Made by a program: the position numbers and the translations under genes. The notes under the pieces were generated by a model. That model searched no databases. It was not told where the DNA came from and worked only from the letters and a program-made list of their open reading frames with translations. Of a stretch of 64,000 bases of DNA, positions 24,551 to 31,959 are shown piece after piece (the stretch's first letter is position 1; each line of letters starts with the position of its first letter). The stretch is from Nitrospira sp. (lineage in GTDB: Bacteria; Nitrospirota; Nitrospiria; Nitrospirales; Nitrospiraceae), in contig JAURZE010000026.1 of assembly GCA_030653545.1 (NCBI GenBank), positions 1-64,000 on the forward strand, written 5' to 3'.

Positions 24551-24627
<77 letters not shown>

Positions 24628-24791
24628 CTCGCATCGAGGGACTGACTGCTAAGTGATTGACAAGTAAGAAGTGTATTCTGCCAGGCGTTTTTAATTCCCT
24701 ATTAGCTCACACGCCCTATCTCCCGCCAACGGGGAATAGTATTCAGATAGCCCTTGCCCTAAAATAAAAATAGTTCTGGCGGGGGTGTTCC

Positions 24792-24959
24792 ATGGGTGGT
24801 TATTGCCGAAAAGAGAGACATGGAAGAAAGCGGTCTGGTAAGCTTCTAACATCAGCTCGGTGGCGATGGACGCGTTCCTGCCCTTGCTGTGGTCGGATCC
24901 TCCAGAAAGAAGAGCCCATGGGTGCCTGGTACTGCACATGTGGATGGCAGTGTGGGTAA
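24792..24959 (+). CDS. Zinc-ribbon microprotein (55 aa), basic N-terminus
   Basis: From ATG 24792 to TAA 24957-24959. The first half is strongly basic (CRKERHGRKRSGKLL); the second half is a compact zinc ribbon, CPCCGRILQ followed by WYCTCGWQCG. The two cysteine knuckles about 17 residues apart are hard to obtain by chance. A GGGGGTG lies about 6 bases before the ATG. It sits 164 bases after tRNA-Arg and is followed after 18 bases by another microprotein gene. Function unknown; nucleic-acid binding is a reasonable guess from the basic arm plus ribbon. Confidence 0.6.
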   Translation: MGGYCRKERHGRKRSGKLLTSARWRWTRSCPCCGRILQKEEPMGAWYCTCGWQCG

Positions 24960-24977
24960 ATAGATTGGGAGGGAGCG

Positions 24978-25121
24978 ATGATGATCCCCGGATTGCATGA
25001 AGTAAAGGCAGGTTTTCTTCTTGCCGTGGGGCTTGCGATGCTGGCGTTAATCTGCGCTGTTGCCGGATTGGGGACGGTTATGCGACCGGCCCGGTGGTCG
25101 GACCGTAAGGTTTCACGCTAG
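24978..25121 (+). CDS. Single-span membrane microprotein (47 aa)
   Basis: Two adjacent ATGs at 24978 and 24981 follow a strong GGGAGGGAG ribosome site. The product starts MMIPGLHEVKAGF and has one hydrophobic helix of about 22 residues (FLLAVGLAMLALICAVAGLG) and a basic tail (MRPARWSDRKVSR). This is a textbook short membrane protein with the tail predicted inside. It is 18 bases after the zinc-ribbon microprotein, suggesting a two-gene unit. No family recognised. Confidence 0.55.
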   Translation: MMIPGLHEVKAGFLLAVGLAMLALICAVAGLGTVMRPARWSDRKVSR

Positions 25122-26693: not shown

Positions 26694-26985
26694 CCGCTCC
26701 CCATCGTCGCCCATCCGCTTCGACGATCATACGTGCCGGATTCTCTTCCTTCCCCTAGCTACATCTCCAGGCGTGACAACTCTCGGCTGAACCATTGTCG
26801 TCAAGGGGCGGTCACTACTTGGCTTGGAGTACCAGCTCGCGCACATTATGAGGGGGACTACCGATTGACATGCTCCCTCTCGCTGTAACAAAGTACCGCC
26901 ACTAGACAGGATGAAACGGAGAGTCCCTTCGTGGCCCTCGTTCTCAGCCTTTTCATTTTTGCAGGGGAACCGAAAGGAGTGTGGA

Positions 26986-27147
26986 GTGGAGCAACGGTAT
27001 GCGATTACAGTCAAGTTCTTGGTCAACGCTGATTCGGCTGAAGATGCTGAGGAAATGATAGAAACTGCCTGTGAAAAGGCGACTGCCGCATTTCCAGAAA
27101 TGAGCTATGAGGGGATCGAGGATATTGAAGAGGAAGAAGACGACTAA
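26986..27147 (+). CDS. Small acidic protein (53 aa)
   Basis: GTG 26986 is preceded by AGGAG at 26975-26979 with a 6-base gap, a better start than an upstream ATG at 26911. The product begins VEQRYAITVKFLVNADSAED and ends in the acidic run DIEEEEDD. The pattern 'Y.ITVKFLV.A.S..DAEE' recalls small proteins with a ferredoxin-like beta-alpha fold, but no family is claimed. The 290 bases before it hold no other gene. Confidence 0.55.
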   Translation: MEQRYAITVKFLVNADSAEDAEEMIETACEKATAAFPEMSYEGIEDIEEEEDD

Positions 27148-30940: not shown

Positions 30941-31959
30941 GGCGACTGCGTATCCTCGTGCTGATGCATGAAGATCTGGTGCCGCCAGACGAGCTGAACG
31001 GCCACGATCTGAGCAAGGTCGGATGGAAGACCGAATACGATGTCGTGTCAACGCTCAGGAAATTGGGCCACGAGGTGCACCCGCTCGGAGTGAAGAGCGA
31101 TTTAGGGGTGATCAGGACGGCGATCGAAGCATGGCGTCCGCACATCGCTTTCAATCTGCTGGAAGAATTCGACGGGATATCGGTGTATGACCAGAATGTC
31201 GTGTCATACCTCGAGTTGCTGCATATGCCCTATACCGGCTGCAATCCGCGCGGGCTCATGTTGGCGCGCGACAAAGCGCTGACGAAAAAGGTTCTTTCCT
31301 ATCACCGGATTCCCTATCCCGACTTCATGGTCGTGCCCCAAGGCCGGAGCGCCAAGCGACCCAAAGATCTAACGTTCCCGCTCATCGTTAAGTCCATCAG
31401 CGAGGAAGCGTCGTTAGGCATCTCTCAAGCGTCGATTGTGGAAGATGATGAGAAGCTCAAAGAGCGGGTGGCCTTCATCCATCAAAGCGTCGGGACCGGT
31501 GCTCTGGTGGAACGGTATATCGAGGGGCGAGAGTTCTACGTCGGGATTATGGGCAATGGTCACATTCAGGTGTTGCCCGTGTGGGAACTGGTCATGGACA
31601 AACTCCCTGAGGATGCCAGGCGCATTGCCACTCAGCGGGTGAAGTGGAGCCGAAAGTATCAAGATAAGTACGGCATCACATCGGAGGAAGCCAGAAATCT
31701 TCCGGCCGGCAAGGCCGAGGAGATCCAACACATGGCCAAGCGGGTCTATCGAGCGCTCGGTCTCAGCGGATATGCGCGAATCGATGTTCGGATGGATGCG
31801 GAGGGGAAAGTCTATGTGCTGGAGGCCAATCCCAATCCGCAAATCGCGCATGAGGAGGACTTTGCCGATTCCGCCGAGAAAGCCGACTATAGCTACAAAG
31901 ATCTACTCCAGGAACTGCTGAATGTCGGCTTGCGCTGGCAGCCGGCCAAAGCCGCTTAA
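30937..31959 (+). CDS. ATP-grasp ligase, D-alanine--D-alanine ligase-like
   Basis: 340 residues with an ATP-grasp fold: N-terminal alpha/beta domain (about 1-110), the substrate loop CNPRGLMLARDKALTKKVL, the nucleotide-binding PLIVKSISEEASLGIS and VERYIEGREFYVGI, and the metal-binding end VLEANPNPQIAHEEDFADSA. This resembles Ddl but the N-terminus differs from cell-wall Ddl and the operon lacks mur genes, so it may form another amide bond. Start ATG 30937 lies within the stop of the metallopeptidase gene. Acceptor and donor are unknown. Confidence 0.82.
   Translation: MRRLRILVLMHEDLVPPDELNGHDLSKVGWKTEYDVVSTLRKLGHEVHPLGVKSDLGVIRTAIEAWRPHIAFNLLEEFDGISVYDQNVVSYLELLHMPYTGCNPRGLMLARDKALTKKVLSYHRIPYPDFMVVPQGRSAKRPKDLTFPLIVKSISEEASLGISQASIVEDDEKLKERVAFIHQSVGTGALVERYIEGREFYVGIMGNGHIQVLPVWELVMDKLPEDARRIATQRVKWSRKYQDKYGITSEEARNLPAGKAEEIQHMAKRVYRALGLSGYARIDVRMDAEGKVYVLEANPNPQIAHEEDFADSAEKADYSYKDLLQELLNVGLRWQPAKAA

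Follow-up and report, generated by a model that had tools for sequence, protein, structure and literature searches.

Two small genes lying 3' of a tRNA-Arg gene in Nitrospira, one for a predicted zinc-ribbon microprotein (G1) and one for a single-helix membrane microprotein (G2), are genuine microprotein genes and are probably co-transcribed. G2 is the core of this pair and G1 is accessory, because constraint on G2 persisted through at least five losses of G1. The family to which G2 belongs is linked by its gene context to phosphate uptake, and this link is the most useful new fact that emerged. Nitrospira are key nitrifiers, both as nitrite oxidisers and as comammox organisms, and the two microproteins are common in this group without being represented by a family model in the libraries searched (Pfam, NCBIfam).

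The window, a stretch of 64,000 nucleotides from a genome of 3.94 Mb, carries the tRNA-Arg gene (anticodon TCG) at 24551-24627 on the + strand, as seen with ARAGORN, with Rfam and in relatives. It is the 5' neighbour of G1 and adjoins it in many, though not all, relatives. The two reading frames that the initial annotation had placed behind this tRNA gene, at 24792-25121, are indeed present there. G1 (24792-24959, + strand) starts 164 bases 3' of the tRNA gene, and its 55 codons translate to MGGYCRKERHGRKRSGKLLTSARWRWTRSCPCCGRILQKEEPMGAWYCTCGWQCG. Its ribosome binding site is probably GGGGGTG (24781-24787, + strand); in many distant relatives AGAGG stands here instead. In a few genomes the usual G1 start codon is gone, and an in-frame ATG is present upstream.

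G2 follows a ribosome binding site, GGGAGGGAG, at 24967-24975 (+ strand), and GGAGG or better stands ahead of nearly all its orthologs. It had been described as a gene of 47 codons beginning 18 bases after G1. This distance is right for the first ATG, from which G2 reads MMIPGLHEVKAGFLLAVGLAMLALICAVAGLGTVMRPARWSDRKVSR (47 aa). However, in orthologs this ATG is replaced by a Thr, Ile, Gly or Ala codon. Since most orthologs have no ATG at this position, translation most likely starts at the second ATG, which gives a protein of 46 aa, a gap of 21 bases and the coordinates 24981-25121 (+ strand).

The leader between the tRNA gene and G1 contains a block, GCCAACGGGGAATAGTATTC (24725-24744, + strand), which is kept in an alignment of seven close relatives and is a candidate promoter or control element; a sigma-70 scan gave no match in it. 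Apart from the tRNA itself, an Rfam search of the leader gave nothing but a sub-threshold match on the antisense strand of this tRNA. In one relative (L040, 1230-1308) the last base of the tRNA-Arg gene, the A of its encoded CCA, apparently doubles as the A with which the G1 start codon begins; tRNA and mRNA would therefore overlap by one base. Elsewhere in the window, at 26977-27147 (+ strand), there is another small acidic reading frame, VEQRYAITVKFLVNADSAEDAEEMIE..., in a region that is kept in many relatives (antisense matches).

For the analysis of conservation, Nitrospira and other Nitrospirae were compared, including the cultured N. moscoviensis, which has the pair (L143). Six-frame searches recovered G1 from 52 of 98 relatives and G2 from 54 of the 59 genus genomes; for G1, E values below 1e-5 were confined to the genus. 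A profile search found G1 in other genera of Nitrospiraceae as well. The dN/dS ratios, determined according to Nei-Gojobori on disjoint nearest pairs, were 0.35 for G1 overall, 0.125 (95% 0.09-0.17) for its ribbon, 0.80 (95% 0.63-1.01) for its N-terminal arm and 0.13 (95% 0.10-0.16) for G2. When the same DNA was read in shifted frames the ratios were 1.07-2.5, i. e. no constraint was visible. This shows that both frames are under purifying selection, and conservation far beyond chance is confirmed. Frames that are not kept, or cysteines without selection, had been named beforehand as evidence against the genes; the frames are kept, the cysteines are constrained, and both genes passed this check.

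Neither protein matched any Pfam, NCBIfam or PDB family. The arm of G1 (24792-24866, + strand) had been noted as basic. Its positive charge is indeed kept (median +5 across orthologs), but its sequence changes almost freely, and it is predicted to be disordered (pLDDT about 50). The core that follows (24867-24956, + strand) has the framework WTRxCPxCGRxLxKxxPMxxWxCxCGW, in which C30, C33, C48 and C50 are the predicted zinc ligands. None of these four cysteines (CPxCG...CxCG) varies in any of the 43 G1 sequences. By contrast, the middle cysteine of the annotated CPCCG is Ser, Ala or Arg in five of the 43, and the remaining cysteines vary, too. The ribbon as first described (CPCCG...CTCG) thus holds for the four ligands and not for the other cysteines. 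AlphaFold2 with 48 natural sequences predicted a core of short beta strands (pLDDT about 80) with the arm disordered, at a pTM of 0.39, which means moderate confidence. A fold search gave no match at E <1, the nearest structure by TM-score being LysW, and no curated ribbon family exceeded its cut-off (best Pfam E 0.0055-0.3, in single members). Domains for DNA binding or signalling are absent from G1, and none of its neighbours by sequence or fold senses zinc. The initial designation of G1 as a zinc sensor is therefore unsupported. By itself, a ribbon with four cysteines would suit a structural site just as well as a sensor; the best reading of G1 is that of a structural zinc-ribbon accessory.

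G2 has one membrane helix, as annotated. Residues 12-30 (25014-25070, + strand) have a mean hydropathy of 2.69 over 19 residues, and AlphaFold2 with 42 natural sequences returned a single helix comprising residues 3-44. The helix is followed by the motif RPxRWS[DE]R (25083-25106, + strand), in which P36, W39 and R42 are invariant and R38 is nearly so, in orthologs and paralogs alike. According to the positive-inside rule the basic flank of a membrane helix faces the cytoplasm. As the C-terminal tail of G2 carries a charge of +3 to +4 and the N-terminus a charge of 0, the tail is probably cytoplasmic. Sequence similarity of G2 to solved or curated families was not found.

The two genes are linked. 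In most loci examined the order is aroE, tRNA-Arg, G1, G2, Pal, PilZ, MsrA; the tRNA gene lies farther off or is absent at some G1-G2 loci. Both genes were located in 59 named loci, and in 58 of these 19-36 bases separate the G1 stop from the G2 start. The exception (L197) is reversed: a different membrane protein of 53 aa, ending in MRPVRWSER...R, comes first and G1 follows directly. Pairs that have kept together also occur in other genera at sites without this synteny (L202, L204, L216, L217, L218), and these relocated pairs have no neighbour gene in common. An extra G1 without a membrane partner nearby was seen in L154 (1468-1638), the same genome having a normal pair (L238). G1 was never seen in a genome without a membrane protein carrying a tail of the RPxRWS[DE]R type. 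Judged by coordinates, G1 and G2 seemed to be naturally fused in one genome (G193); the locus in fact holds a decayed G1 that has undergone a frameshift and runs on into G2.

G2, on the other hand, does exist without G1. Of the 54 G2-bearing genomes, 11 lack G1 or carry it in broken form; the losses of G1 were counted on a tree of Pal and G2, and G2 in G1-less genomes has dN/dS values of 0.03-0.13. The link between the genes is therefore real but one-sided: order and gap are fixed, yet G1 can be lost while G2 remains constrained. Of the partnership first proposed for the two genes, the linkage stands, relocated copies included, whereas an obligate partnership is contradicted. The tail motif is kept in G2 where the genome lacks G1, and likewise in paralogs without a ribbon partner. 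Holding G1 is thus not its sole purpose, which shows that it has a use independent of G1.

Further insight comes from the G2 family as a whole, i. e. membrane microproteins with a single helix and with RPxRWS[DE]R at the end. In a profile search of 295 genomes of the phylum this family was confined to Nitrospiraceae, and matches elsewhere were at chance level. Outside the aroE locus lies a second branch, which is marked by M..ELRAG and VM+PDRWSER. Phosphate genes were found within about 8 kb at 16 of 18 paralog loci, some of which are orthologous positions in different genomes and hence partly non-independent. By their Pfam/NCBIfam names these genes encode PhoB-like regulators, PstS, PhoU, polyphosphate kinase (PPK), CYTH/CHAD, PHO4, PsiE, phosphate-selective porin (porin O/P) and 5'-nucleotidase. 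In three loci (L224-L226) phoU is the next gene downstream of the paralog. Paralogs in phosphate-acquisition clusters were seen in L062, L079, L206, L208, L210, L221-L229 and L232. The window genome itself has one paralog, on contig C9 at 31550-31684 (8995-9129 in L232), near PPK, a PhoB-like regulator and PstS. Just upstream of the paralogs in L221 (6300-6420) and L229 (8700-8800) there is a small membrane reading frame, MLAKLRVGFLLVKSLM...IRLRL.R, perhaps a further family branch that lacks the RPxRW tail.

Upstream of seven of the 18 paralogs we noticed a Pho-box-like 11-bp repeat, TWAC-N7-YAAY-N7-TGAY. The pattern was read from the same upstream sequences in which it was counted; the count is thus post hoc and the repeat, as a Pho-box-like element, is suggestive only. 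It occurs in 0 of 59 ortholog entries, nowhere in the window and in none of the background loci L001-L059, and the classical E. coli Pho-box pattern was not found upstream of the paralogs. Pho-type control of the window pair was rejected on the lack of the repeat there. No phosphate genes are among the neighbours of this pair either, so that its connection to phosphate is by family only. In the literature we found nothing specific on small proteins or on the Pho regulon of Nitrospira. The G2 family adds membrane microproteins to the phosphate-acquisition clusters of Nitrospira, and control of phosphate uptake by small proteins thereby becomes testable in a major environmental lineage.

In a possible interpretation, to which we assign a probability of roughly 0.4, G2 would be the modulator of a membrane partner, and the complex would have an optional structural zinc-ribbon adaptor in G1. 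G2 would be inserted in the membrane with its tail in the cytoplasm and, by analogy with MgtS, AcrZ and MgtU, would regulate or stabilise a larger membrane protein of which it is a small subunit. The paralogs in phosphate clusters could play an equivalent role for the phosphate-uptake machinery. G1 would hold Zn2+ structurally and adjust the complex of G2 from the cytoplasm. The partner of the window G2 is probably not PhoB-induced. Extended to the whole family, the idea would be that of a Nitrospiraceae-specific system of membrane microproteins sharing the cytoplasmic RPxRWS[DE]R tail, each attached to a different envelope or transport complex and many of them in the phosphate-starvation response, with the zinc-ribbon microprotein as a plug-in adaptor for one branch; in this full form we regard it as unlikely.

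The one-sided link could also mean that G2 works by itself as a small membrane subunit and that G1, a separate small protein with a ribbon, merely shares the operon; it might be, for instance, a factor associated with ribosomes or RNA. The losses of G1 under continued constraint on G2 would fit, and so would the neighbouring tRNA gene in many genomes and the weak profile matches of G1 to ribosomal eL43 and eS31. Yet these matches are not significant (all E >0.03) and the tRNA adjacency is not general. Moreover, at the relocated loci and in the reversed L197, G1 still has beside it either G2 or another membrane protein that shares its tail. A separate function of G1 therefore appears somewhat doubtful to us.

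There are two other proposals for the pair. As a zinc or redox sensor G1 would signal through G2, which would agree with the fixed pairing with a membrane protein and with four invariant cysteines able to bind Zn2+. The absence of a regulator domain and of any known zinc-sensor relative of G1, the lack of zinc transport genes among the conserved syntenic neighbours and the frequent loss of G1 from genomes that retain G2 make this improbable. If instead G1 were the antitoxin of a small membrane toxin, G2, the combination of a small soluble and a small hydrophobic protein across a short gap would be explained. However, this toxin-antitoxin pair is contradicted by the 11 genomes with intact G2 and absent or broken G1 and by the persistence of G2 after each loss; the synteny is constant rather than a sporadic spread, and G2 was not found on plasmids. 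We consider such a pair highly improbable. We continue to favour G2 as modulator of a membrane partner, with G1 as its optional adaptor.

Among known systems, the zinc-sensing regulators Zur and ZntR have metal-binding cysteines, as predicted for G1, but the 55 residues of G1 hold no DNA-binding domain. The CPxCG ribbons, such as Zn_ribbon_3 (PF13248), LysW and ribosomal eL43, share with G1 the CPxCG and CxC(G) ligand pairs, and have short beta hairpins of the kind predicted for G1. G1, in contrast, has no significant sequence or fold match to them and is built on a framework of its own, WTRxCPxCGRxLxKxxPMxxW, with a variable basic tether. Small membrane proteins are known to modulate transporters, and MgtS acts on the PiT-family phosphate transporter PitA (PMC10710835). 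Like G2, MgtS, AcrZ and MgtU have fewer than 50 aa and one membrane helix (PMC10710835), and the action of MgtS on PitA has its counterpart in the position of the G2 paralogs beside phosphate transporters. Unlike these three proteins, G2 has the conserved RPxRWS[DE]R tail and a zinc-ribbon companion gene.
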